Shown here one piece after another: positions 2,198 through 34,563 of a DNA stretch of 59,842 bases (position 1 is the first letter of the stretch; the number at the start of each line of letters is the position of its first letter). The stretch is from assembly GCA_934418125.1 (NCBI GenBank), contig CAKRWT010000016.1:1-59842 (forward strand), in the 5' to 3' direction. Below the pieces are notes generated by a model. That model was not told the DNA's origin. It saw only the letters and a program-made list of their open reading frames with translations, and made no database searches. This DNA comes from an uncultured Lachnospiraceae bacterium. Lineage in GTDB: Bacteria; Bacillota; Clostridia; Lachnospirales; Lachnospiraceae. Position numbers and translations under genes: made by a program.

Positions 2198-3240
2198 AAA
2201 AATTTACAAAGGTGTGTCTGACAGCAGCAGCGGTTCTGGCAGTGCTGGGACTGGTACTATGTGGTGTATTTGGTGCCCTGGGCGGTTTCAGACAGTTAAG
2301 ACAAATCAATGACGGCACAATCTATTCACTGGTTCCGATAGCTTATTCCGGTACAGACGGGGACTGGAGCGAGTGGGACGAAGATTTTGAGGACATGGAA
2401 GAAGACTGGGATGACCTGGAGGACACAGAGGATATGGATGAGGACTGGGATGAAATGAATCTGGCAGATATGGAAGAAGCAGCAGGTTGGAATGCAGACC
2501 AGATAACGAAGCTGAATCTTTCCTTAAAGGCATGCTATCTGTCTATACAGCCATCGAAAGATGATAATATCTGCTTATCAGTTTCCGGGAACAAGGATGA
2601 AGTAAAGTATCGGATAGATGGAGAAACCCTTGTCATTAAGACAAGAAAAAAGGATAACTGGCTGCAGTATGTCAATATGAGACAGAACAATGCGAGAGTT
2701 GTACTGCAAATTCCTGAGGATAAGTACTTTGAGCAGTTGGATATGGAATTTGGTGCCGGAAAAATCAAAAGCATGGCATTGCAGGCAGATGACATGGAGA
2801 TAGAGCTTGGTGCCGGAAAATGTGACATAGAAGGACTGAGTGCAGAGAAAATGGATTTATCCATCGGAGCAGGTAAAATGACAATAGGAAGTCTGAAGGC
2901 ACATAAGGCAGCGATTGACCTGGGAGCTGGAGAGATGAGCGTTAAAGAGGTTGTAATTCCGGAGAAGCTGGATGTAGAGATTGGCATGGGAAATGCAGTG
3001 ATAGAGGGAAGTGTTACCGGTAAGATGACGGCTGAATGTGGCATGGGAAGCTTACAACTGCAGTTGGATGATTCAGAAAAGGCTCATAATTACAGCATAG
3101 ACTGTGCGATGGGAAATGTGACCATAGGAAACATGAATTACAGTGGCATGGCAGCATCGAAGGAGATTAATAATGATGCAGACAGCAAATTTGACATTAG
3201 CTGTGCGATGGGAAATGTGAGTCTTCGGTTTGCGGAGTAA
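2194..3240 (+). CDS. DUF4097 family beta-strand repeat protein, membrane-anchored
   Basis: A single N-terminal hydrophobic segment (about residues 8-30) is followed by a very acidic stretch (about 52-92, rich in Asp, Glu and Trp). A DUF4097-type domain then runs to residue 348, with repeated strands such as LGAGKCDIEG, IGAGKMTIGS, LGAGEMSVKE, IGMGNAVIEG and CAMGNVTIGN, the pattern of a right-handed beta-solenoid. The family is common in PadR/DUF1700 operons and probably acts outside the membrane; its ligand is unknown. The acidic region could bind cations. The start shares the ATGA with the upstream stop. Confidence is high for the family and low for function. Confidence 0.85.
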   Translation: MKKFTKVCLTAAAVLAVLGLVLCGVFGALGGFRQLRQINDGTIYSLVPIAYSGTDGDWSEWDEDFEDMEEDWDDLEDTEDMDEDWDEMNLADMEEAAGWNADQITKLNLSLKACYLSIQPSKDDNICLSVSGNKDEVKYRIDGETLVIKTRKKDNWLQYVNMRQNNARVVLQIPEDKYFEQLDMEFGAGKIKSMALQADDMEIELGAGKCDIEGLSAEKMDLSIGAGKMTIGSLKAHKAAIDLGAGEMSVKEVVIPEKLDVEIGMGNAVIEGSVTGKMTAECGMGSLQLQLDDSEKAHNYSIDCAMGNVTIGNMNYSGMAASKEINNDADSKFDISCAMGNVSLRFAE

Positions 3241-3260
3241 GCAGATGCCAGAGAATATCT

Positions 3261-3338
3261 GGAACCATAGAAGTCATGGAAAAGAACAGAGGCTGTTCGG
3301 AAATCATGAAAGTTATGGAAAAATAACAGAATCTGTTT
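3261..3338. repeat. Imperfect tandem repeat of about 39 bp
   Basis: Two adjacent units (3261-3298 and 3299-3338) share the pattern GGAA-N-CAT-GAAG/AAAG-T-ATGGAAAA-AACAGA-CTGTT. An incidental reading frame of 31 codons from 3245 covers both, but it has no ribosome binding site. The repeat lies in the gap between the DUF4097 and PspC genes. Confidence 0.5.
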
Positions 3339-3423
3339 AGAAAGAAGTAAGAATAGGGAAAGGTAAGCATGCTAACATACAAACATGCAGGGGAAACAAC
3401 CCAAAAGAGAGGAGAAAATAGAT

Positions 3424-3633
3424 ATGAATAACGATTATAAGAAATTAGTACGTTCCAAAACAAACAGAACTTTTTGCGGAGTATGCGGAGGGATTGGTGA
3501 ATACCTCAATGTAGACCCGACCCTGGTAAGATTAATCTGGCTGTTATGCTCCATCGCCAGTCTGGGAACCGGTCTAATCGTCTACATCATTGCCGCCCTG
3601 ATAATTCCGGAAGATAATAGTATTGTCGGATAG
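3424..3633 (+). CDS. PspC domain protein
   Basis: This 69-residue protein is essentially one PspC domain. A basic start (KKLVRSKTNR) precedes FCGVCGGIGEYLNVDPTLVRLIW and one hydrophobic helix ending in IIPE, all hallmarks of PspC. PspC proteins are small inner-membrane proteins tied to envelope-stress responses; in Firmicutes they often sit beside PadR/DUF1700/DUF4097 genes, as here. The ATG at 3424 is preceded by GAGAGGAGAAA. A 183-base gap separates it from the upstream operon, so it may be co-transcribed or separate. A strong terminator follows. Confidence 0.9.
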   Translation: MNNDYKKLVRSKTNRTFCGVCGGIGEYLNVDPTLVRLIWLLCSIASLGTGLIVYIIAALIIPEDNSIVG

Positions 3634-3654
3634 GAAAAACAACATAAGTGTAAA

Positions 3655-3700
3655 CAGAAAGGTGAGTACCCGGAAACGGATACTCACCTTTCTGTTTTGT
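3655..3700. terminator. Bidirectional terminator between pspC-like gene and ECF S component
   Basis: A long stem (3655-3672 with 3677-3694) with a GAAA tetraloop is followed by TGTTTTGTTT. It separates convergent genes ending at 3633 and 3708 and can serve both strands. Confidence 0.85.
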
Positions 3701-3707
3701 TTATCAC

Positions 3708-4304
3708 TTAGTTTTCTTTTTTCTGACCGATAGTAAAGAACAGGTTTGACTTTTTCAAGGCAGGGCGAAGTGCCATATATACTGCTACCGATACAATAGT
3801 AGAAGTAACGGCATTGATAGAAGTGGAAGCAACATTCCATGCCAGTGTCAGCTCAGCAGCGGGCTTGCCTAAGATAACTAACTTATAGAAGTAGCCTACA
3901 AGCGGGTCAAAGATGACATTGAATAAAAGACCACCGATAGCTGCCAGAATAGTCCATTTTAAGACCTTTTTGTTATCGGTTTCTGTGCTGATATGTCCTA
4001 ATTTGTGGGCAATCAGACCGGTAATCAGACCGATACAGAACTTTAAGATAAAAGTCTTAGGAGCATATACCACATAGACAGGGTCGAAGATATCGCCAAT
4101 AGTCATACCGATGGCACCGCCAAGCCCACCATAGACACCACCTAACAGCAGGGCACCCAGTACACAGACTGCATTGCCAAGATGGATAGAAGTGGCATCG
4201 CCGCCAGGCAGCGGAATCTTAATCTGCAGGAACGTAAACACTACATAAGACAGGGCGGCAAAGATGCCGGTAAATACGATTTTGAGTAACTTTTCATTTT
4301 TCAT
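3708..4304 (-). CDS. ECF-type transporter S component (vitamin/cofactor uptake)
   Basis: A 198-residue integral membrane protein with about six hydrophobic segments. The family features visible are the N-terminal TGIFAALSYVVFTFLQIKIP, the conserved HLGNAVCVLGALLLGGVYGGLGGAIGMTIGD block and a YAPKTFILKF segment. S components bind the vitamin and pair with the shared EcfA/A'/T module, which is not in this window, so it probably uses a general ECF module encoded elsewhere. The ligand (riboflavin, pantothenate, pyridoxine or other) cannot be told here, and I see no known riboswitch upstream. The start at 4304 fits a GAGGATT ribosome binding site; the frame stays open upstream but without family residues. 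Its leader resembles that of the MATE gene. Confidence 0.85.
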   Translation of the reverse strand: MKNEKLLKIVFTGIFAALSYVVFTFLQIKIPLPGGDATSIHLGNAVCVLGALLLGGVYGGLGGAIGMTIGDIFDPVYVVYAPKTFILKFCIGLITGLIAHKLGHISTETDNKKVLKWTILAAIGGLLFNVIFDPLVGYFYKLVILGKPAAELTLAWNVASTSINAVTSTIVSVAVYMALRPALKKSNLFFTIGQKKEN

Positions 4305-4607
4305 AACAATCCTCATTTCTGCACACGCGTTTATTAGTAATCGGAAATACTCTGGAAATCCTCTATTTCCTAATACTTTGATATGATTAGTATTATACTG
4401 CTTGCTGGTATGATAAAAAGTACCAATTTGAGTTTTTTTCATAATACCAGATTATGGCGACGGTAAAATTTTACGGAGAGCTTAGATTGATTTTTCCATA
4501 TTGCAGTTTAAACTGTGTAATGTTAAAATAATAACAGAAAAATGAGTATAAAGAGTATAAATAGGAGGTTGCAGGCATGGGGATGTCTGTAACAATGTGA
4601 GGGTATT
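4305..4607. other. Divergent intergenic region between ECF S component and HD-GYP gene
   Basis: The 303 bases hold the leader of the minus-strand transporter, including a stretch (4305-4328) almost identical in reverse complement to the RBS region of the MATE gene. Toward the other side is the promoter of the HD-GYP gene. A -10-like TATAAT on the minus strand near 4394 may serve the transporter, but I found no convincing -35. No coding signal is visible. Confidence 0.5.
4501..4529 (+). promoter_or_regulatory. Promoter of the HD-GYP membrane protein
   Basis: TTGCAG (4501-4506) and TAAAAT (4524-4529) are 17 bases apart, about 80 bases before the gene. This is a reasonable vegetative promoter by inspection only. 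Confidence 0.5.
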
Positions 4608-6578
4608 ATGACAAGTTATTGTATCTGGTATGGTCTGGCAGCAATATGTGCATTAGGGTGTGCTGCATATACCCGCCAGCAAAGTGATAAAATGAGTCTG
4701 CTTTTAGGGAAACTGTATGTTTCCGTGGCAGCAGTGAACTTGCTTTATTTATTAGAAAGAGTCTATGCGGATGCTTACCAAAAGGCAGAGATTTTTAACT
4801 GTTTGTTTTTGGTGGCAGTGGATTTGCTGTTATTTGCACTGCTCCGGTATATTGTGGAATTTACAGAACCGAAAACAGCACCGACAAAAGGAAAGAAAAA
4901 TCTGCTTTGGGGGTTATTGGTACTGCTGTGCATGGATGTCTTACTTCGATTGCTTGATGGGAAACATAGCTTCTATCTGCACATGGCATTCTGTTGTTGC
5001 CTGTTAGGCAGCATGCTCTATTTCCTGATTAAAAAGATATATATGATTCCGAGAGTTTACAGAGGACGTTACTATGTAATGCTTGGAATATTAGGAATCC
5101 TGGCAGCAGCCAATGTGTTTTGCCTGATGGAAGCGACACCGCTGCGAGAAAACGTTTCACTTATCCTGATGGGCTGTCTGTGCCCAATGCTATATTGGAA
5201 TACTTTTGATTACACGTCGAAGAGTTCCCTGAACACAACCAGGAAGATGATTCTGGAATATATGGGTGCCCCTATGATACTCTTTGATTATGAGGGATAT
5301 GTGGCGGACAGTAACAGGGATATGCGGGTATTGTTTCCAATCTTAAATAATAAGGAAAGAAAAATCAGCATGATGGACTTCCTGCAGATTGGTGCTTTTA
5401 AAGAGCTGCAGAATACCGAGCAGGACCAGATATTTGAATGGAATTATACTTCGGTGCTTGGTAACAGACCATACCAGTGTAATTTTAACTGCCTGAAAGA
5501 TGAAAAAGGACGTGTGATAGGGCATCTTCTTATTATGCGTAATATGGAAGAACAGAGAGATATGCTGACCCAGCTGCATTCCAAACAGAATTTCTTTACG
5601 AGGATGGACAAGATTGCGCAACAGGGAGTATATCCGATTACGGTGGCTATCTGTAATGCCAATGGCATTGGTTTGATAAATGATGTGTTTGGCTGGAATA
5701 AGGGAAATGAAATGATTCGGCTGACGGCAGACCTTTTGCGGGAGAATCTGCCCAAGAACACAGAACTGGCGCGTATGGAAGATGGCAATATCGCAGCAGG
5801 TTTTGTACAGGTGGAACAGGAATATGCCATCCGGTTATTTGAAAATGTAAGAGAGAAATACAGCCAGGCGAATGATACGGGCATAGAGTCTGATTTAGAG
5901 TATGGGATTGCTGTGGTACGGGATAGCAGCAAGAGTATCCAGCAGGCAGTCAGGGAGGCAGCGGAAAGTCTTCGTACCAAGAAACTGATGAATGAAACGT
6001 CTAACAAGAGTTCTCTTTTGGATTCGCTTACGCAGACGCTCACAGAGAGTGATTATGAGACAGAAGAGCATGTGGAACGTACGAAAGAGATGGCGGTAAA
6101 GCTGGGCAGAGCCTTACATCTGTCAGATGGCGAGCTGGGTAAGCTGGCACTATTGGCGGTGTTACATGACATTGGTAAGATAGCTATTCCACAGACAATC
6201 TTATTAAAACCGGGCAAGCTGACAGACGAAGAATGGGAAGTGATGAAATCCCATGCAGAAAAAGGATTTCGGATTGCCAGTGCTTCGAAAGAGCTGCGAC
6301 CGATTGCCGATTATATTCTGCATCATCATGAGAGATGGGATGGAAAAGGGTATCCTGGTGGTCTGGAGGGTGAGAGTATTCCATTGTTGTCCAGAATTAT
6401 TACGGTGGTAGATTCCCATGATGTAATGGTACATGACAGACCATACCATAAAGCAATGAGTGAGGAAGATGCGGAGAAGGAATTAGTCCGATGTGCCGGG
6501 ACACAGTTTGACCCGCATATTGTAGAGGTGTTCCTGGAGGTATTGAAGCATAATACAGAAGGAAAGAAAACAGAGTGA
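4608..6578 (+). CDS. Membrane-bound HD-GYP c-di-GMP phosphodiesterase with degenerate GGDEF
   Basis: Domains in this 656-residue protein: seven or so membrane helices (about 1-205), a PAS-like region (about 215-320), a GGDEF-fold domain (about 335-460) whose active-site loop reads RMEDGN instead of RxGGDEF, and a C-terminal HD-GYP domain. The last has HDIGK near residue 520, HHHERWDGKGYPGG near 568 and VVDSHD later, so the metal ligands of an active c-di-GMP phosphodiesterase look intact. The GGDEF part is predicted to be inactive and may be regulatory. It probably converts a membrane or intracellular signal into lower c-di-GMP. A second HD-GYP and a PilZ protein lie near 21-22.6 kb. Confidence 0.88.
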   Translation: MTSYCIWYGLAAICALGCAAYTRQQSDKMSLLLGKLYVSVAAVNLLYLLERVYADAYQKAEIFNCLFLVAVDLLLFALLRYIVEFTEPKTAPTKGKKNLLWGLLVLLCMDVLLRLLDGKHSFYLHMAFCCCLLGSMLYFLIKKIYMIPRVYRGRYYVMLGILGILAAANVFCLMEATPLRENVSLILMGCLCPMLYWNTFDYTSKSSLNTTRKMILEYMGAPMILFDYEGYVADSNRDMRVLFPILNNKERKISMMDFLQIGAFKELQNTEQDQIFEWNYTSVLGNRPYQCNFNCLKDEKGRVIGHLLIMRNMEEQRDMLTQLHSKQNFFTRMDKIAQQGVYPITVAICNANGIGLINDVFGWNKGNEMIRLTADLLRENLPKNTELARMEDGNIAAGFVQVEQEYAIRLFENVREKYSQANDTGIESDLEYGIAVVRDSSKSIQQAVREAAESLRTKKLMNETSNKSSLLDSLTQTLTESDYETEEHVERTKEMAVKLGRALHLSDGELGKLALLAVLHDIGKIAIPQTILLKPGKLTDEEWEVMKSHAEKGFRIASASKELRPIADYILHHHERWDGKGYPGGLEGESIPLLSRIITVVDSHDVMVHDRPYHKAMSEEDAEKELVRCAGTQFDPHIVEVFLEVLKHNTEGKKTE

Positions 6579-19862: not shown

Positions 19863-20642
19863 ATGGAAGAAACTGCCGTATTAATTGAGAAATCACAGGC
19901 AGGAGATAAAGAGGCTAGAGAGAAACTGATAGAGGAAAATCTGGGACTGGTAAGGCATATCGTGAAACGTTTCGTATCCAGAGGGTATGATGCAGAGGAT
20001 TTATTCCAGACCGGCTGCATCGGACTGATGAAAGCCATTGATAAATTTAATCTGGATTTCGACGTGCGTTTCTCCACCTACGCAGTGCCCATGATACAGG
20101 GGGAAATCAAACGGTTCCTGCGGGATGACGGGATGGTCAAGGTAAGCAGAACCCTGAAAGAAAATGGCTGGAAAATCAAGCAGGCAGCCCAGAAGCTGTC
20201 CTATGAACAGGGCAGGGAACCAACCATGCAGGAGCTTTCCGAAGCCACCGGGCTTAGCATGGATGATATTGTGATGGCACTGGATGCCAACGTGGAGGTG
20301 GAGTCCATCTATAAGTCCGTCTACCAGTCGGATGGTAACGAAATTTATCTGGTAGACCAGATTGTAGGAAGAAGCGGCAGTGTAGGCAGGTCAGCCATGC
20401 AGCATGGTGGTACAGGCGGCTTGGGTGCCTGCGAGGATGTGGAGAAGGAAGAACTGTTAAACCACATGCTGCTGGAGCAGCTTCTTGATAATCTGGAGGA
20501 AAAAGAAAAGGAACTGATTTTCATGCGCTATTTCCAGAATAAGACGCAGGTGGAGGTTGCAAGGTATCTGGGTATCAGCCAGGTACAGGTCAGCCGTATG
20601 GAAAAAAGGATTCTGTTGCGTTTACGGGCACAAGTGTTGTAA
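19863..20642 (+). CDS. sigF: RNA polymerase sigma-F factor, forespore specific
   Basis: A 259-residue sigma-70-family factor that starts forespore gene expression. Region 2 contains GLVRHIVKRF and DLFQTGCIGLMKAIDKFNLD...FSTYAVPMIQGEIKRFLRDDG. Region 3 has REPTMQELSEATGLS. Region 4 holds the helix-turn-helix KTQVEVARYLGISQVQVSRMEK. Between regions 3 and 4 is an unusual glycine-rich stretch of about 25 residues (GRSGSVGRSAMQHGGTGGLG...). The ATG is 2 bases after spoIIAB; GAGGA at the end of that gene can serve as its ribosome binding site. Confidence 0.97.
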   Translation: MEETAVLIEKSQAGDKEAREKLIEENLGLVRHIVKRFVSRGYDAEDLFQTGCIGLMKAIDKFNLDFDVRFSTYAVPMIQGEIKRFLRDDGMVKVSRTLKENGWKIKQAAQKLSYEQGREPTMQELSEATGLSMDDIVMALDANVEVESIYKSVYQSDGNEIYLVDQIVGRSGSVGRSAMQHGGTGGLGACEDVEKEELLNHMLLEQLLDNLEEKEKELIFMRYFQNKTQVEVARYLGISQVQVSRMEKRILLRLRAQVL

Positions 20643-25818: not shown

Positions 25819-26796
25819 ATGATAAAAATTGATTTGATTACAGGCTTTCTGGGAGCCGGTAAGACAACTTTTATGAAAAAATATGCCAGATATCTGATAG
25901 AAAGCGGTCAGAAAATCTGTATTCTGGAAAATGATTTTGGCGCGGTCAATGTGGATATGCTGCTGTTACAGGATATGCTGTCTGAGCAGTGCGACCTGGA
26001 AATGGTAGCAGGCGGCTGTGATGCAGACTGCCATAAGAGGCGGTTTAAAACGAAGCTGATTTCTATGGGAATGCGGGGGTTTGACAGGGTGCTGGTGGAG
26101 CCTTCCGGAATTTTTGATATGGACGAATTCTTTGACACTCTGCGGGAAGAGCCGTTGGAGCAGTGGTATGAAATCGGTAATGTCATCGCCATCGTAGATG
26201 CCCGTCTGGAAGAAAATCTGTCCACCCAGGCACAGTTTCTGTTAGCTTCGGAAACGGCTGGTGCAGGGCAGGTCATTTTAAGCCGGGTACAGGAGGCTGA
26301 GAGTACCGATATCGAACATACGCTGACTTATCTGAACCAGGCAATGGAACAGGTGCAGTGTAAGAGACGGTTTCAGACAGAGAACGGAGACGGAGTGCGC
26401 CCGAAGGATGTAGTGCTGGCAAAGGATTGGGACAGCCTGACGAAGGAAGACTATGAGAAGATACTTCACAGTGGCTATGCATCGGAAAGCTATCAGAAGA
26501 TGTGGTTAGATAAGAAGGACGCGTTTACTTCCTTGTATTTTATGCATGTGAAGATGTCGGAGCAGGACATGCGGGAAGCGGTAGAGAAACTGTTTGCCAC
26601 ACCTGCCTGCGGCAATATTTTCCGGGTAAAAGGGTTCCTCCTGGTGGCAGAGGATTCCTATATAGAGTTTAATGCCACCAGAGAAAAGTTTTCCAGCAAA
26701 CCGGTAGAAAAGGGACAGGAAGTGTTCATTGTTATCGGGGAAAATCTGACAGAAGCAGCAATTAAGGAAGTATTTCATATACAGGAGCAGGCATGA
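25819..26796 (+). CDS. G3E family GTPase (CobW/P47K-like) with altered metal motif
   Basis: A 325-residue P-loop GTPase of the CobW/HypB/UreG group. It has GFLGAGKTTFMKKY (Walker A, about 8-21), ENDFGAVNVD, the LVEPSG Walker B-like strand, NVIAIVDA, and a CobW-type C-terminal domain (about 230-320). COG0523 proteins usually have CxCC for metal binding. Here that segment reads GGCDADCHKRRF, which keeps two cysteines and a histidine but not the standard spacing. G3E proteins deliver metals to target proteins; this one may do something different. It is the first gene of a coupled operon: its TGA overlaps the next ATG. Confidence 0.88.
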   Translation: MIKIDLITGFLGAGKTTFMKKYARYLIESGQKICILENDFGAVNVDMLLLQDMLSEQCDLEMVAGGCDADCHKRRFKTKLISMGMRGFDRVLVEPSGIFDMDEFFDTLREEPLEQWYEIGNVIAIVDARLEENLSTQAQFLLASETAGAGQVILSRVQEAESTDIEHTLTYLNQAMEQVQCKRRFQTENGDGVRPKDVVLAKDWDSLTKEDYEKILHSGYASESYQKMWLDKKDAFTSLYFMHVKMSEQDMREAVEKLFATPACGNIFRVKGFLLVAEDSYIEFNATREKFSSKPVEKGQEVFIVIGENLTEAAIKEVFHIQEQA

Positions 26797-29558
26797 AACG
26801 AAAGAACATCGTGCTGGGGGTTCTTGCCCACGTAGATGCGGGTAAGACAACACTGGCAGAAAGCATATTATATATAAGCGGAACGCTCCGCAAGTTAGGG
26901 CGTGTAGACCATAAGGATGCCTTTCTGGATACGGACAGGCAGGAGCGGGACAGAGGCATTACAATTTTTTCCAAGGAGGCAAGATTTCACTGGAAGGACA
27001 TGGACGTGACCTTATTAGATACACCCGGACATGTGGACTTCTCAGCAGAGATGGAGCGTACCTTACAGGTGCTGGACTATGCGGTGTTGATTATCAGCGG
27101 TGCAGATGGTATCCAGGGACATACCATGACCCTGTGGAGGCTGCTGGAACGCTACGGCATCCCGACATTTCTGTTTATCAATAAGATGGACCAGCCGGGG
27201 ACAGAACAGGAAGCCTTACTGGCGCAGTTAAAAGAACGGCTGGACGGACGATGTATTTCTTTTGCAAAGAAAGATACGGCTTTCTATGAGAATGTGGCAG
27301 TCTGTGAAGAGGACTTGCTGGAGCGGTTTCTGGAATCGGAGCAGATAGAAGAGGAAGAGATTGTAAGACTGGTGGCAGAACGGAAGGTCTTTCCCTGCTT
27401 CTTTGGTTCCGCTCTGAAAGTAGAAGGCGTGGAGGAACTGCTGGAGGGATTGTATAACTATACCAGGATGCCGGAATACCAGGCAGCTTTGGGTGCAAGA
27501 GTCTATAAGATATCCAGGGATGGACAGGGTAACCGGATGACCCATGTAAAGGTGACCGGTGGAAGTCTTAAGGTAAAGCAGATGATTCCTGTCTATGACC
27601 GGGAAAAGGATTGTCATACAGAGGAAAAGATAGACCAGATACGGCTTTATTCCGGCAATAAATATGAGATGGCGCAGGAGGTGCAGGCAGGAGACATCTG
27701 TGCTTTGACAGGTCCGGTAAAAACCTTCAGTGGGGAAGGCATCGGTGCAGAGCAGGAGAATACCATTCCTTTGCTGACACCGGTCATGACCTACCGTATT
27801 GTGTTGCCGGAAGGCTGCGATGTGCACCAGATGTATGACAAGTTATGTCAACTGGAAGAGGAAGAACCGCAGCTTCATATTTTATGGAAGGAGCAGAAGG
27901 AAGAGATTCATGCACAGCTTATGGGCGAGGTGCAGATTACGATTTTGCAGAATCTGATAGCAGAACGCTTCGGGGTGGAAGTTACCTTTGATGAGGGAAG
28001 CATTGTTTATCAGGAAACCATTGCCAATGTGGTAGAGGGAGTAGGTCATTTTGAACCCCTGCGGCATTATGCGGAGGTGCATCTGGTACTGGAACCGGGT
28101 GAGCCGGGCAGTGGCTTACAGTTTGCTGTCAGCTGTAGTGAAGACGTATTAGATAAGAACTGGCAGAGACTGATACTGACCCATCTGGAGGAAAAGGAGC
28201 ATTTAGGCGTGCTGACCGGTTCGCCCATTACCGATATGCTGATTACTATAGTGGCAGGGCGGGCACACACGAAGCATACAGAGGGCGGCGATTTCCGGCA
28301 GGCAACCTACCGGGCATTGCGGCAGGGACTGTGCAAGGCTCAGAGTGTCCTGTTAGAGCCGGTGTATGCCTTCCGGCTGGAACTGCCGGCTGGTATGATT
28401 GGACGAGCCATGACGGATATCCAGACGAAGCAGGGAGATTTTGAACCACCGGTTATAGAGGGGGAATACGCTATTCTGACGGGGACGGTGCCGGTATCGG
28501 AAATGAGCGGTTATCAGACGGAGCTGCTTGCCTATTCCGGAGGAAAAGGAAGGCTTTTTACCGAATTAAAAGGCTATGCACCCTGCCATAATGCGAAGGA
28601 GGTCATTGAGCAGACAGGCTATGAAGCAGAGCATGATGTAGCAAATCCCTGCGGTTCAGTGTTCTGTGCCCACGGAGCGGGATTTGTGGTGGAATGGGAC
28701 AGTGTAGAAGCGTATATGCATCTGGAAAGTATACTGGACAGCGGTACTTTCCGGTTGGCAGATGGCAGCCTGTATCAGCCGGAAAAGGCAAAACAGGATG
28801 CCCAGGAAGCCAGTGGTAACTTTGCAGGACAGTATGCCAGACGGGCAGGAGCGGCTAAGAGCAGTACCGCGGAGGATTTTATCGGACAGGATGAGATAGA
28901 GGAAATCTTTACCAGAACCTTCGGGACAAAGAAACGGGAGAAACCGGGCTGGGGAAAAACCATCCGTTCTGTCCCACACAGCAGGGAAACGAAGTATCAG
29001 GGAACACCACTTCCCCAGGAAGAATATCTGCTGGTGGACGGCTATAACATTATTTTTGGCTGGGAGAACCTGAACGAACTGGCGAAGACGAATCTGGACG
29101 GAGCCAGAGGCAGGCTGATGGATATCCTGAGCAATTATCAGGGATACCGCAAGATGCATCTGATTCTGGTATTCGATGCCTATAAGGTAAAAGGCAATCC
29201 GGGAAGTGCGGTGCGTTATCACAATATTGATGTGGTTTACACGAAGGAAGCTGAAACTGCAGACAGCTATATCGAGAAAGTGACCCACCAGATAGGGAAA
29301 AAATACAGGGTGCGGGTTGCAACCTCTGATGGACTGGAGCAGATGATTATTATGGGTGCCGGAGCGACCAGGGTATCTGCCAGGGAATTTCAGGAAGAAG
29401 TGATGGCAGCAGGCAAGGAAATACGCCAGATGTTTCTGGAGAACCCGGAAAGGCAGACCGGTGGCAGAAATTATCTGTTGGAAGGAGCCTCCGAGGAAGT
29501 AACTGCCTATCTGGAGAAACAGAAACAAAAACTAGAAGAAGACAGAGAAACGATATGA
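26793..29558 (+). CDS. TetM-like ribosomal-protection GTPase fused to a YacP/Rae1-type NYN nuclease domain
   Basis: This 921-residue protein joins two families. Residues 1 to about 640 form an EF-G-like translational GTPase of the Tet(M)/Tet(O) group: LAHVDAGKTT (G1, about 11-20), RGITI (switch I), LDTPGHVDF (G3), INKMDQPG (G4), then domains II to V, with GGDFRQATYRALRQGL and ELKGYAPCHNAKEV. A charged linker (about 640-740) leads to an NYN domain (about 742-890) that matches bacterial YacP/Rae1, with acidic residues kept in LLVDGYN, VFDAYKVKG, TKEAETADSYIEKV and ATSDGLEQM. Rae1 of Bacillus cleaves mRNA in the ribosomal A site, where Tet(M) also binds. It likely acts on stalled ribosomes; tetracycline resistance is uncertain. 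Neighbours overlap by 4 bases on both sides. Confidence 0.93.
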   Translation: MKRKNIVLGVLAHVDAGKTTLAESILYISGTLRKLGRVDHKDAFLDTDRQERDRGITIFSKEARFHWKDMDVTLLDTPGHVDFSAEMERTLQVLDYAVLIISGADGIQGHTMTLWRLLERYGIPTFLFINKMDQPGTEQEALLAQLKERLDGRCISFAKKDTAFYENVAVCEEDLLERFLESEQIEEEEIVRLVAERKVFPCFFGSALKVEGVEELLEGLYNYTRMPEYQAALGARVYKISRDGQGNRMTHVKVTGGSLKVKQMIPVYDREKDCHTEEKIDQIRLYSGNKYEMAQEVQAGDICALTGPVKTFSGEGIGAEQENTIPLLTPVMTYRIVLPEGCDVHQMYDKLCQLEEEEPQLHILWKEQKEEIHAQLMGEVQITILQNLIAERFGVEVTFDEGSIVYQETIANVVEGVGHFEPLRHYAEVHLVLEPGEPGSGLQFAVSCSEDVLDKNWQRLILTHLEEKEHLGVLTGSPITDMLITIVAGRAHTKHTEGGDFRQATYRALRQGLCKAQSVLLEPVYAFRLELPAGMIGRAMTDIQTKQGDFEPPVIEGEYAILTGTVPVSEMSGYQTELLAYSGGKGRLFTELKGYAPCHNAKEVIEQTGYEAEHDVANPCGSVFCAHGAGFVVEWDSVEAYMHLESILDSGTFRLADGSLYQPEKAKQDAQEASGNFAGQYARRAGAAKSSTAEDFIGQDEIEEIFTRTFGTKKREKPGWGKTIRSVPHSRETKYQGTPLPQEEYLLVDGYNIIFGWENLNELAKTNLDGARGRLMDILSNYQGYRKMHLILVFDAYKVKGNPGSAVRYHNIDVVYTKEAETADSYIEKVTHQIGKKYRVRVATSDGLEQMIIMGAGATRVSAREFQEEVMAAGKEIRQMFLENPERQTGGRNYLLEGASEEVTAYLEKQKQKLEEDRETI

Positions 29559-31465
29559 TAAAAGACAATGAACAACAAGACCTGAATCCATTTCAGGACA
29601 AACCGGCAAATGGCATTCCGGAAGCCGTCTGGAAGGTGTATGAGGCAGCATTTTTCCAGTTTGCCCCAGAGGAACAACGTAAATATATCAAAAGCTGTGA
29701 ACGGCAGATTGGGCAGTTGGAACGAAGGATTGCCCGTAAGAAGTATCAGGATAAACATCAGATACTGGCGGATATGGGGTCCATGCATATCCGGGCAGCA
29801 AGCATTGGTTATACGGTAGTACGTAAGCAACGGCGGCTGATGAAGAAGTACCGCCATGTTATACGACGGCTGGCAAAGTTAGACATCAGCTTTTTACACA
29901 GTATGGCACCCAAGGTGTCAGAGGGGGAAGTGGCAGGCATGGAGCAGACGGTCCAGTATCTGCGCAGCAAATCCCTCTATGAAATCTATCGGGATGAATA
30001 CATGAAATATCTGGTAGGACAGCGGATGGAAGAGCTGATGGAGGCAGAGCCGGAGAAGCAGTATCCGGAAGCCAGAGGAATGAAGCGGCATTTTGTGCTG
30101 CACATAGGAGCCACCAACAGTGGCAAGACGTATCAGGCATTACAGCGGCTGCGGCAGGCATACCGGGGTATCTATTTAGGACCATTACGCCTGCTGGCAC
30201 TGGAAATCTATGACCGGATGATGGAATCAGGAATCCCCTGCAGCATGATAACCGGGGAGGAAACCATCCGCACACCGGGCAGTTTTGTACAGGCATCTAC
30301 CATTGAAATGATGGACTTATGGGAGGTTTATGACATTGCTGTAATCGACGAAGCCCAGATGATGACAGATGAGAACCGAGGCAGCTACTGGACCAGGGCT
30401 ATTCTGGGAATCCGTGCGGAGGAAGTACATGTATGCTGTTCTCCTACGGCAGAGAACCTGCTGGTAAAGATGATAGAGCGTTGTGGTGACAGCTATGAAA
30501 TCGTACGCCATGAGCGAAATACAAAACTGGAATTCATACCGGAACGGTACGATATCCGGAAGGATGTACAGCGAGGAGATGCCCTGATTGCCTTTTCCAA
30601 GAAAAATGTACTGGCAATTGCCGCAGCACTGGAAGCCAGGGGCATGCATGTCAGTGTTATCTATGGCAATCTGCCGCCTCAGACCAGACAGGAGCAGGTA
30701 CGTCTGTTTACTGAGGGGGTCCATGAGGTGGTTGTGGCAACCGATGCTATCGGGATGGGAATCAATCTGCCGATTCGGCGGATTGTGTTTATGAATACGG
30801 TAAAATTTGATGGTGTGCAGAAACGGAGGCTTCATGCAGAGGAGATACGGCAGATAGCCGGGAGGGCAGGGCGTTATGGCTACTACGATACCGGTTATGT
30901 GCAGACTGCCATGGACATAGAATATATTGGAAAGAAGCTGGAGGAGCCGTGGTATCCGTTAAAAAAAGCCAGAGTCGGATTTCCGGAAGTGTTGTTAGAT
31001 TTGGATTTGGAATTGGACGAAATCATGGAAGCCTGGGAAAAAACCGGCAATCTGCCGATGTATGACAAAGTATCCATGACCGAAAGTATTAAGAAATACC
31101 ATTATCTGAAAAAGGAAAAGAGAAAGTTACCTTACCTGAATGACAGGAAGTTAGTCATGATTTTGATTACCTGTCCTTTTGATATCAATGACAGAGATGT
31201 CTTAAAGCTGTGGCGGCGGTATTGTGACCAGCCGGACAAGCAGCAGGACTGCCCGATGTTACCGAGAGATTTCAGTCTGGAAGGGCTGGAATCTTATTAC
31301 AAACAGTTGGATTTGTATCATCAGTTTGCAGGCAGGATGAACTGGGTGGTAGACAAAGAAGAGGTAGCAGCCAACCGGGAATGGGCGCAGCATGAAATCA
31401 GTGTCCTGTTGAAGGAAGATAAAGGGCAGTATCTGCCCTTGTCGGCATTAACGCCTGGAGAGTAA
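29555..31465 (+). CDS. SUV3-like ATP-dependent RNA helicase
   Basis: A 636-residue superfamily 2 helicase. An N-terminal basic helical region (about 1-175) precedes Walker A GATNSGKT (about 185-192), the SUV3-type GIYLGPLRLLALEIYDRM, the motif II box DEAQMM (about 265-270), YGNLPPQTRQEQV and the arginine-finger motif QIAGRAGRYG. It resembles mitochondrial SUV3, which works with RNA-degrading exonucleases; homologues occur in some Firmicutes. The stop of the TetM/NYN gene overlaps its start (ATGA), so the two are translationally coupled. I infer a joint role in handling mRNA on or from ribosomes. Its 3' end overlaps the convergent hydrolase gene by 18 bases. Confidence 0.9.
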   Translation: MIKDNEQQDLNPFQDKPANGIPEAVWKVYEAAFFQFAPEEQRKYIKSCERQIGQLERRIARKKYQDKHQILADMGSMHIRAASIGYTVVRKQRRLMKKYRHVIRRLAKLDISFLHSMAPKVSEGEVAGMEQTVQYLRSKSLYEIYRDEYMKYLVGQRMEELMEAEPEKQYPEARGMKRHFVLHIGATNSGKTYQALQRLRQAYRGIYLGPLRLLALEIYDRMMESGIPCSMITGEETIRTPGSFVQASTIEMMDLWEVYDIAVIDEAQMMTDENRGSYWTRAILGIRAEEVHVCCSPTAENLLVKMIERCGDSYEIVRHERNTKLEFIPERYDIRKDVQRGDALIAFSKKNVLAIAAALEARGMHVSVIYGNLPPQTRQEQVRLFTEGVHEVVVATDAIGMGINLPIRRIVFMNTVKFDGVQKRRLHAEEIRQIAGRAGRYGYYDTGYVQTAMDIEYIGKKLEEPWYPLKKARVGFPEVLLDLDLELDEIMEAWEKTGNLPMYDKVSMTESIKKYHYLKKEKRKLPYLNDRKLVMILITCPFDINDRDVLKLWRRYCDQPDKQQDCPMLPRDFSLEGLESYYKQLDLYHQFAGRMNWVVDKEEVAANREWAQHEISVLLKEDKGQYLPLSALTPGE

Positions 31466-32703: not shown

Positions 32704-33372
32704 ATGATTTCCACATATTATATGGATGTGACACAATTAGAAGAAGAAAAGCTTTATGAAGAAAAGTTCAGAAGCCTGTCACCCTACCGACGGCAGAAGA
32801 TACAGATTCTCAAGCATCATAAGGATAAATGCCGCAGTCTGGGGGCTGGAATCGTCTTAGACTACGCTTTACAGCAGTATGGTCTGCGGGAGCGGCAGAT
32901 GGACTATGCTATCGGACAGTGGGGAAAACCTTTTTTTAAGGAATATCCGCAGTTACATTTTTCGTTGTCCCATTCCGGGGATTATGCGATATGCAGTATC
33001 GGTAAAACACCTGTCGGGAATGATATCGAGGGTATTAAAAGCGGGCATCTTAAGGTGGCAGACCGTTTCTATACGCCAAAGGAACGGGAATGGATGTATG
33101 AGGCAGTTACTGGTCCGGAGATAGAAAAGCGGATGTTCCGTATCTGGACGGTAAAGGAAAGCTTCTTAAAGGCAACCGGAAGAGGGATGTCCCTTAGCCT
33201 GTTGGATTTTTCCGTGCTGTTTGGGGACGGGGGAGTTATCAACATTGAGCAGACGTTGGAAGAAGCCCCTTTTCATGGAAAAGAATACCGGCAGATTCCG
33301 GGCTACTGCGTGTGTGTGTGCTGCCATCAGGGGGAAGAGATAGCACCGGAAATACAGCCCGTTATTCTTTAA
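32704..33372 (+). CDS. 4'-phosphopantetheinyl transferase (Sfp type)
   Basis: A 222-residue enzyme that transfers 4'-phosphopantetheine from CoA to a carrier-protein serine. It shows FSLSHSGDYAICSIG, the magnesium-binding GNDIEGIK block and the WTVKESFLKATGRGM signature, which together define the Sfp group rather than AcpS. No carrier protein, polyketide or peptide synthetase gene is seen nearby, so its target may be encoded elsewhere. The next gene is spoVAD. Confidence 0.93.
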   Translation: MISTYYMDVTQLEEEKLYEEKFRSLSPYRRQKIQILKHHKDKCRSLGAGIVLDYALQQYGLRERQMDYAIGQWGKPFFKEYPQLHFSLSHSGDYAICSIGKTPVGNDIEGIKSGHLKVADRFYTPKEREWMYEAVTGPEIEKRMFRIWTVKESFLKATGRGMSLSLLDFSVLFGDGGVINIEQTLEEAPFHGKEYRQIPGYCVCVCCHQGEEIAPEIQPVIL

Positions 33373-33519: not shown

Positions 33520-34563
33520 ATGCTTGGAAAACAGAGTATAGCATATACGAAGAAACCTTATCTGATTGGCAGTGGTTCAATTGTGGGGAATAAGGAAGCC
33601 CAGGGCCCCATGGGGAAGTTGTTTGATAAGGTAGGATATGATGATAAGTTTGGAGCCGATACCTGGGAAAGTGCAGAGAGCAGCTTACAGCAGGAGGCAG
33701 TGGAAATTGCCCTTCATAAAGCGAATCTGAACAAACAGGATATCCAGGTAATTTATGCAGGAGATTTACTGGGACAGTCCATTGCCAGCAGCTTTGGAAT
33801 GTCCCAGTTTGAACTTCCCCATGTGGGATTGTATGGAGCCTGCTCTACCTGTGGATTAAGTCTGGCGATGGGCAGCATGAGTGTGGCTGCCGGTTTTGTG
33901 CCAAAGTGTGTCTGTGTGACTTCCAGTCACTTTGCCAGTGCAGAGAAAGAATTCCGTTTCCCATTAGCTTATGGTACGCAACGACCAAAATCAGCAACCT
34001 GGACGGTAACCGGCAGCGCTGCCTTTGTGTTATCGGAGCAGCCGGGAAAACAGGTGCAGGCGGTCATTGAAGGTGTTACTCTGGGAAAGATTGTAGATTA
34101 TGGTGTAAAGGATTCTATGAATATGGGTGCCTGTATGGCACCGGCAGCAGCTGATACCATCAGGCAGCATCTGGAGGATTTCGGAAGGACGCCGGAAGAT
34201 TATGATAAGATTATTACAGGCGATTTGGGAAAAGTAGGGCAGCAGCTTCTCTTTGATTTACTGCAGGAAGCCCGGATTGATATTACGAAACAACACATGG
34301 ACTGCGGTATCGAAATCTATGACAGCGGGAAGCAGAACACCGATGCCGGTGGCTCAGGCTGTGGCTGCAGTGCAGTGGTACTGTCGGCTTATATTTTAAA
34401 GAAGATAGAAGAAGGTGTCTGGAAACGAGTGCTTTTTGTGCCAACCGGAGCGTTGTTGAGTAAGACCAGTTTTAACGAGGGACAGAGCATTCCGGGGATT
34501 GCCCACGGGGTAGTGCTGGAACATTATGACTGTTCTATGTGTGACACCGTACTGTCCCGCTGA
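33520..34563 (+). CDS. spoVAD: Stage V sporulation protein AD
   Basis: A 347-residue thiolase-fold protein of the SpoVAD family, which in Bacillus binds dipicolinic acid at the outer face of the inner spore membrane. Visible family regions are QSIAYTKKPYLIGSGSIVG, GYDDKFGADTWE.AES, the YGACSTCGLSLAMGSM nucleophile-like region and GGSGCGCSAVVLSAYIL. It stands alone, 9 kb from spoVAA-AB-AC and on the other strand, with its own sigma-G-like promoter. The last 40 bases overlap the convergent LacI gene. Confidence 0.96.
   Translation: MLGKQSIAYTKKPYLIGSGSIVGNKEAQGPMGKLFDKVGYDDKFGADTWESAESSLQQEAVEIALHKANLNKQDIQVIYAGDLLGQSIASSFGMSQFELPHVGLYGACSTCGLSLAMGSMSVAAGFVPKCVCVTSSHFASAEKEFRFPLAYGTQRPKSATWTVTGSAAFVLSEQPGKQVQAVIEGVTLGKIVDYGVKDSMNMGACMAPAAADTIRQHLEDFGRTPEDYDKIITGDLGKVGQQLLFDLLQEARIDITKQHMDCGIEIYDSGKQNTDAGGSGCGCSAVVLSAYILKKIEEGVWKRVLFVPTGALLSKTSFNEGQSIPGIAHGVVLEHYDCSMCDTVLSR

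Follow-up and report, generated by a model that had tools for sequence, protein, structure and literature searches.

The window analyzed here, a stretch of 59,842 nucleotides from an uncultured Lachnospiraceae bacterium, contains a gene that joins an EF-G/Tet-type translational GTPase to a Rae1-type NYN nuclease and raises the question of what such a protein does: does it protect ribosomes from tetracycline, or does it cut mRNA on paused ribosomes? Translation of the window established one frame of 921 residues with a single terminal stop, as the initial annotation had claimed, and the motifs that it quoted, LLVDGYN, VFDAYKVKG, TKEAETADSYIEK and ATSDG, are all present (Table 1). Chance and an assembly or sequencing artefact are ruled out, and the occurrence of the same fusion in related genomes is confirmed: it is read in one frame of 853 to 1086 residues, a few ending at a contig end, in 80 of 80 loci (the best 80 of 590 confirmed genome loci, a set that is biased because the query was the fusion alignment), and a search of genomes with the NYN family only, free of that bias, returned many long frames.

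Table 1. Features of the fusion gene, its product and the adjoining genes (positions are those of the window)
Feature	Residues	Positions	Strand	Basis or remark
CobW-type GTPase gene		25819..26796	+	4-nt overlap with the start of the fusion; context only
GTPase-NYN fusion coding sequence, 921 aa		26793..29558	+	ORF translation, Pfam
G domain; HVDAGKTTL, DTPGH and NKMD intact	6-224	26808..27464	+	Pfam GTP_EFTU, 1.7e-51
EF-G domain IV	403-517	27999..28343	+	Pfam EFG_IV, 3.7e-16
Domain IV tip loop 3	489-503	28257..28301	+	HxKHTEGGDFR versus YYSPVSTPADFR in Tet(M)
EF-G domain V	519-602	28347..28598	+	Pfam EFG_C, 9.6e-18
GTPase C-terminal end, subfamily marker A2	586-646	28548..28730	+	Alignment
Linker, presumably disordered	672-742	28806..29018	+	Low confidence: pLDDT <50 at 674-676, 682-706 and 708-739
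Conserved linker motif E-[LIV]-x-x-I-[F/I/L]-x-[R/K]-T-[F/Y]	701-710	28893..28922	+	Followed by a basic stretch
NYN_YacP (Rae1-type) nuclease domain	746-909	29028..29519	+	Pfam, 2.1e-50
Asp749 (VDGYN)	749	29037..29039	+	Rae1 Asp7 by alignment
Asp795 (VFDAY)	795	29175..29177	+	Rae1 Asp53 by alignment
Asp824 (ETADS)	824	29262..29264	+	Rae1 Asp81 by alignment
Asp846 (ATSDG)	846	29328..29330	+	Rae1 Asp104 by alignment
SUV3-like RNA helicase gene		29555..31465	+	4-nt overlap with the end of the fusion; context only

The architecture itself is already in print: proteins built like the one studied here, carrying a YacP-like NYN domain, were described from ten Clostridiales species and classed as "Tet" proteins, and resistance through an RNase was surmised for them (Atkinson 2015, BMC Genomics 16:78, PMC4342817). 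Relative to that account, what is new here is the assignment of the GTPase to a separate, non-Tet subfamily, a far wider distribution, the replacement of Rae1, and a conserved linker motif together with the loss of the Rae1 C-terminal element. Literature searches found no biochemical test of any GTPase-NYN fusion.

The assignment of the nuclease to the Rae1 type is well supported. Rae1 (YacP) of Bacillus subtilis is an NYN/PIN-type endonuclease of A-site mRNA (PDB 5mq8 and 5mq9), with S1025 named among its targets (PMC11780869). The C-terminal domain of the fusion scores 171.4 bits with NYN_YacP, against a curated cut-off of 24.6. Since the PDB fold search with the whole predicted model covers residues 1-611 only, the NYN domain was also predicted and searched alone, and it matched the Rae1 fold. 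The positions equivalent to Asp7, 53, 81 and 104, numbered on an alignment with B. subtilis Rae1, are Asp in all 81 proteins compared, a conservation on which the initial annotation had staked its reading. Its proposal that a GTPase of the ribosomal kind is fused to a nuclease of the Rae1 kind is supported. The fused nuclease differs from B. subtilis Rae1 in being the C-terminal part of a 921-residue protein that also comprises a translational GTPase and a linker with a conserved motif. The C-terminal LExhR element, a criterion of our own that lies outside the published family definition, is mostly lost: its strict form occurs in 8 of 81 fused domains versus 22 of 25 stand-alone ones (25 of 81 versus 22 of 25 with a looser pattern), and the window protein reads LEKQKQ at that position.

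The GTPase module (residues 1-646) has the G domain motifs and domains II to V of the EF-G (EF2) family, with Pfam matches to domains II and III falling slightly short (20.9 and 26.8, respectively, against a cut-off of 27 for each). The G domain motifs are identical in the 81 proteins compared, save residue 16 (Ala in 72, Ser in 9) and residue 132 (Met in 80, Ile in 1), and a fold search against viral proteins gave distant GTPases at best. Domain IV is the part of EF-G and of Tet proteins that enters the A site; in its tip loop 3, H492 aligns with the EF-G loop His, and K494 with Pro509 of Tet(M). Identity with EF-G itself is 27%, and loop 1 reads HFEPLRHYAEV where EF-G has RQSGGRGQFG; we take the fusion to be a factor additional to EF-G. 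The last part of marker A2 has no counterpart, in our alignment, in Tet(M/O/W/Q), TetB(P), the OtrA-like protein or EF-G. Proteins named "translation factor GTPase family protein" (∼640-725 residues) from Clostridium-like genomes, Paenibacillus and Ligilactobacillus salivarius belong to the same subfamily and share the loop HTxGGDFR and the C-terminal extension, but they lack the NYN domain.

Between the two modules, the linker is variable except for one helix-like motif. A strict pattern, composed after viewing the 81 linkers, matched 75 of them versus 0.05 expected in shuffles. It was then tried on 20 other genomes with at most 74% DNA identity to any of the 80 loci and matched 14 of the 18 that were parsed (8 of the 11 whose linker was cut cleanly, 6 of the remaining 7); for L209, L220 and L227, the searched stretch was longer than the linker, which makes those matches softer. 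A relaxed pattern, composed after the first 11 of the other genomes, is left out of these counts, and a narrower core motif occurs in 41 of the 81. The persistence of the motif, with the loss of most Rae1 C-terminal elements, suggests that the modules depend on each other.

How the fusion relates to stand-alone Rae1 is best seen at the level of genomes. Of 391 genomes of the class Clostridia searched with the NYN family, a long, fused frame is present in 128 and a short one with NYN in 108, and only one (G363) has both, where 35 would be expected under independence, counts that take no account of kinship. The 128 genomes do not represent as many independent replacements, because kinship is uncorrected and a single origin of the fusion was not rejected (p-AU 0.49 in a tree of 26 rows). 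All carry one copy except G167, with two long fused frames. In 35 of 35 chosen relatives with the fusion, it is the sole YacP of the genome. At the loci inspected, stand-alone yacP is next to rlmB, which encodes an rRNA methylase. Seven fusion genomes were checked for the rlmB-yacP-sigH operon; six show rlmB-sigH with no yacP between, and in G020 the rlmB-sigH pair is itself broken. The fusion gene lies outside this operon in the fusion genomes examined. The replacement of stand-alone Rae1 by the fusion in nearly all examined carrier genomes is thus well supported.

A few assignments call for care, and absence from any single genome may reflect assembly gaps. Thirteen intermediate frames were assigned to neither the fused nor the stand-alone class; 12 of the 13 have the GTPase marker (G365 lacks it), and the coordinates of those in G361 and G214 place them close to the start of a contig. 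One frame counted among the 128 (G115) stops at a contig end. The "short" NYN of G258, kept among the 108, is probably part of a cut fusion, since this NYN (28007-28462 of 28600) and the GTPase that would belong to it are found at the ends of two different contigs.

Because the fusion takes the place of stand-alone Rae1, cutting of mRNA on stalled or paused ribosomes, as the initial annotation had proposed, is its likeliest predicted job. We think it fairly probable that the protein is a clostridial Rae1 with its own ribosome-docking GTPase, which cuts A-site mRNA on paused ribosomes. The nuclease would be tethered through a flexible linker of ∼70 residues to its own EF-G/Tet-type GTPase, which would recognize paused or stalled ribosomes with an open A site and dock in the factor site. 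The A site is the presumed place of both domain IV and Rae1, which would thus be unable to work on one ribosome simultaneously; sequential use, or action on a neighboring ribosome, must be assumed. GTP hydrolysis would make domain IV vacate the A site, and the tethered nuclease would then enter it and cut the codon there, which would destine the transcript for degradation and the ribosome for rescue, presumably as part of general ribosome-coupled mRNA turnover. We infer ribosome binding, a GTP-driven hand-over, A-site cleavage and a use in mRNA turnover. More tentative, and in our opinion rather doubtful, is the stronger version of a GTP-powered A-site nuclease, whose EF-G-like module would select paused or collided ribosomes, whose GTP hydrolysis would empty the A site and whose tether would hand that site to the Rae1 domain. 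If this version were true, a core ribosome quality-control factor would be present in about one-third of the Clostridia genomes sampled (128 of 391), and it would replace the passive entry of stand-alone Rae1.

Could the protein instead protect ribosomes from tetracycline or a related drug, with the added RNase domain contributing to resistance? This possibility was raised in passing in the report that classed the fusions under Tet (Atkinson 2015) and is implied by some NCBI names, the members from A. rectalis and L. salivarius being annotated as TetM/TetW/TetO/TetS family. The fusion has the domain order of Tet(M), an EF-G-like GTPase of five domains with 29-31% identity to Tet(M), Tet(O), Tet(W), Tet(Q) and TetB(P) over 614-620 residues, and tet_protect is its top NCBIfam match. 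We nevertheless consider it very improbable. The scores of the Tet models, in bits, are far under their cut-offs (NF012153, 420 of 775; NF033148, 290 of 1100; NF012155, 252 of 1420), and the tree places the subfamily and Tet(M/O/W/Q), TetB(P) and the OtrA-like protein on opposite sides (support 100/99 and 98/99); the careful tree of 26 rows, a chosen part of the whole, agrees with a quick tree of 64 rows in setting the subfamily apart. The tip loops of Tet(M) are missing, with HFEPLRHY in place of NP[FY] in loop 1 and KHTEGG in place of S-P-x-S-T in loop 3, where a Lys aligns with Pro509, the residue of Tet(M) that is reported to overlap bound tetracycline (PMC7456112). The C-terminal extension and the distribution also differ: a long fused frame that occurs in 128 of the 391 Clostridia genomes, as a single copy save for G167, is unlike a sporadic resistance gene. 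The fusion GTPase thus forms a separate subfamily, outside the Tet proteins, to judge from the sequence comparisons. The description of the module as a complete EF-G/Tet(M)-like GTPase therefore holds for fold and domains and fails for the Tet model scores and tip loops. The view that the protein is something other than plain tetracycline resistance is borne out, whereas the differing loops and the Lys at the Pro509 position speak against the idea that it acts on drug-bound ribosomes as Tet(M) does. A role in antibiotic response found no support, as no sign of antibiotic control was seen among the neighboring genes in the window and at the best 80 of 590 loci.

The remaining alternatives accept the nuclease but give it other work. 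Two independent jobs on one chain, namely, those of an EF-G-like GTPase acting in rescue or stress and of a Rae1 nuclease merely coexpressed with it, would fit the long, disordered linker and the existence of each part by itself. Of 106 genomes that have a stand-alone NYN, 15 also encode an unfused GTPase of the subfamily and 91 do not; the GTPase further occurs without any NYN in 8 of 142, which suggests that it has a use of its own. The fused-type NYN of G277 stands alone, so the nuclease can survive untethered. The same counts were considered as Rosetta-stone support for a link between unfused GTPase and stand-alone Rae1, but the cooccurrence (odds ratio 2.8, p 0.03, kinship ignored) was too weak. 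Since G277 is the sole such case among the fused-type NYN domains seen, and given the conserved linker motif and the loss of most Rae1 C-terminal elements, we judge separate jobs unlikely. A nuclease for the maturation or decay of rRNA or tRNA, for which the GTPase would give access to the ribosome or precursors and which would cut rRNA rather than mRNA, would suit the position of stand-alone yacP beside rlmB; we consider it improbable, as domain IV would fit the translating ribosome better than precursors and as A-site cleavage of mRNA is what has been reported for the characterized relative, Rae1 of B. subtilis (PMC12320835, PMC6613710). NYN and PIN nucleases also occur in abortive-infection and toxin-like systems, which brings to mind a defense or growth-arrest nuclease borne on a translation factor. 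This is extremely improbable in view of the mutual exclusion with stand-alone Rae1, of the single copy in all but one of 128 genomes and of the lack of a conserved partner gene: any neighbor family is common to at most 7 of the 80 loci (the best 80 of 590), some of which end close to the fusion and limit the view of neighbors.

Descriptions of Rae1 have this nuclease entering paused ribosomes at the A site. A natural GTPase fusion that excludes stand-alone Rae1 offers a handle on how Rae1 chooses those ribosomes, and GTPase-dead, linker-motif and nuclease-dead versions can be compared within one protein. This work should direct attention to the conserved linker motif and to the unfused GTPase subfamily. 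In addition, some "TetM/TetW/TetO/TetS family" labels in gut commensals may denote another kind of factor and could inflate counts of resistance genes.

Of note, L. salivarius and L. fermentum branch among the fused proteins in the quick 64-row tree, in which the row F_L156 is marked as fused though its NYN domain is on another contig; their placement perhaps results from loss of the NYN domain. As for the flanking genes, the possibility that the SUV3-like helicase and CobW form an operon with the fusion and belong to its system was considered and rejected, the helicase lying beside the fusion only in L001 and CobW giving no match among the best 80 of 590 loci. In L001, the helicase gene follows the fusion and is itself followed by a phosphopantetheinyl transferase gene.

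The single 921-codon frame described in the initial annotation proved sound, and every motif quoted there was present on translation of the window. The G domain, EF-G domains IV and V, and NYN_YacP were all matched in Pfam, with matches to domains II and III falling just under the cut-offs. A protein search seeded with the linker and NYN domain returned at least 7988 candidates, all with E <= 0.001; among the best 120, 118 were 852 to 1015 aa long and all contained NYN_YacP together with EF-G domains IV and V. A sequencing or assembly artefact, a possibility raised in the initial annotation together with a search for the same fusion in related genomes, is argued against by scanning genomes with the fusion alignment as query: 590 loci were confirmed, and the best 80 of them, a set biased towards fusions and comprising Lachnospiraceae and other clostridial names, all carry a fused frame (853 to 1086 aa). 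The nuclease reading had been made to depend on conservation of the catalytic Asp residues, and D749, D795, D824, and D846 are kept in all 81 proteins compared, including that of the window; the G-domain motifs are intact. Two divergent fusions (L220 in genome G171 and L209 in G036) have VDSYN for VDGYN and a loop GKHTEPPDFN for KHTEGGDFR; changes of function are possible.

Coordinates of the fusion gene, its neighbors, and related loci
Feature	Sequence	Position	Strand	Remark
GTPase-NYN fusion	window	26793-29558	+	one open frame, 921 codons
CobW-type GTPase	window	25819-26796		domain match; 4-nt overlap with fusion start
SUV3-like RNA helicase	window	29555-31465		DEXQc_Suv3, 2.4e-62; 4-nt overlap with fusion end
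Phosphopantetheinyl transferase	window	32704-33372		upstream of SpoVAD gene
SpoVAD	window	33520-34563		1.4e-141; downstream of phosphopantetheinyl transferase gene
SigF/SigG-type sigma factor	window	19863-20642		
Relative	L121	2998-4917		NCBI: TetM/TetW/TetO/TetS family tetracycline resistance protein
A. rectalis fusion	L123	4989-7790		same NCBI name
Unfused GTPase	L172 (L. salivarius UCC118 pMP118 megaplasmid)	2384-4902		adjoins rpsN (S14) and a putative metal homeostasis protein gene
Stand-alone NYN of G277	L157	5790-6308		away from rlmB

The initial annotation called the GTPase TetM-like, and NCBI likewise names some relatives as Tet family. The fusion protein scores far under the Tet model cut-offs, and its GTPase is 29% identical to Tet(M) and 27% to an EF-G, versus 43 to 50% to four unfused relatives (two clostridial, Paenibacillus, and L. 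salivarius). A careful tree built on 26 selected proteins places fused and unfused members of this subfamily on one side of a branch with support of 100/99; a second branch (98/99) has Tet(M), O, W, Q, TetB(P), and an OtrA-like protein on one side, and the same separation is seen in a quick 64-row tree. At the domain IV tip, Tet(M/O/W/Q) have YYSPVSTPADFR, TetB(P) has FFSPASTPADFR, and the OtrA-like protein has SSPSSTAADFR, whereas the fused proteins have HxKHTEGGDFR (81/81) and 15 unfused ones HxKHT[E/S/C/N]GGDFR, with NEHTHGGDFR in the unfused Paenibacillus protein and NVHTVGGDFR in that of L. salivarius. Tet(M) Pro509, reported to overlap bound tetracycline (PMC7456112, PMC8161019), aligns with K494 of the fusion, and H492 of the fusion with an EF-G His. 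Loop 1 reads PPNPFW in Tet(M/O/W) and either NPY or NPF in the other Tet proteins; the fusion has HFEPLRHY instead. Together, the tree, the tip loops, the Pro509 position, and the Tet scores place the GTPase, as judged from its sequence, on the EF-G plan and outside the Tet family. The L121 protein lacks an SPVST loop and scores 374 bits against the Tet model, whose cut-off is 775; its Tet name is probably wrong.

In a large part of Clostridia, the fusion replaces stand-alone Rae1. The fused NYN is the sole NYN over the family cut-off in all 35 chosen fusion genomes, one of which has a second match below it. We searched a sample of 391 genomes from the class to which Eubacterium sp. 14-2 belongs, which we take to be Clostridia, with the NYN family alone, and found matches in 249 (248 above cut-off). 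Sorted by frame length, 108 genomes have a short (160 to 217 aa), 13 an intermediate (295 to 734 aa), and 128 a long frame (789 to 1190 aa). Exactly one genome, G363, combines short and long frames and is counted in both classes, versus 35.4 expected under independence (Fisher p 2e-21, kinship ignored). The C-terminal end of the fusion GTPase, used as a marker, is present in 164 genomes: all 128 with a long frame, 12 of 13 with an intermediate one, 8 without NYN, and 17 of the 108 with a short one, namely G363 (entered twice in this tally, as short and as long), G258, where the gene is split between contigs, and 15 that carry the GTPase unfused; the remaining 91 short-frame genomes lack the marker.

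Gene order agrees. Stand-alone yacP sits between rlmB and sigH in G302 (L207), G363 (L158), and G213 (L160), the last with an additional 779-aa frame separating rlmB from yacP. In six fusion genomes (G031, G019, G015, G011, G014, and G025; L200-L204 and L208), the rlmB-sigH gap is 3 to 341 nt and holds no NYN, so the operon that normally includes yacP is without it in these fusion carriers; in a seventh fusion genome, G020 (L205), sigH was not found beside rlmB. A quick NYN tree separates 36 fused domains plus the stand-alone NYN of G277 from 25 other stand-alone ones (support 100). The G277 domain branches within the fused group; this genome has an unfused GTPase elsewhere, and its NYN may be the product of fission of a fusion.

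The protein that replaces Rae1 joins a Rae1-type nuclease, acidic site included, to a GTPase that belongs to a distinct subfamily and retains its motifs. The initial annotation proposed a nuclease brought to stalled or drug-bound ribosomes to cut mRNA; its observation was confirmed, and its interpretation is right in part. The GTPase would deliver the tethered nuclease to ribosomes whose A site is open, which the two would occupy in turn because both are built for it; by rough estimate, the linker at full extension could measure well over 100 angstrom, sufficient to connect the factor site with the decoding site. Against this simple picture, some genomes have the GTPase but no such nuclease, and one has a fused-type nuclease apart from the GTPase.

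The architecture itself is already known: Atkinson 2015 (PMC4342817), the only open-licence paper found in which the terms "ribosomal protection protein" and "NYN domain" both occur, reports the fusion in ten Clostridiales and suggests an RNase-based resistance mechanism. The open-licence literature yielded no functional study of the fusion and no report of Rae1 replacement by it, and earlier notice elsewhere is possible. We add that the fusion takes the place of Rae1 in much of Clostridia, that its GTPase is separate from Tet, and that its linker has a conserved motif.

As for gene neighborhoods, CobW had no match in any of the 80 fusion loci. At L001, a SUV3-like helicase again follows the fusion, so that an RNA helicase and a ribosome-type nuclease are paired locally. 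The neighbors of the L. salivarius GTPase may hint at metal limitation. In the window, sporulation genes (the SigF/SigG-type sigma factor and SpoVAD) flank the fusion locus on both sides.
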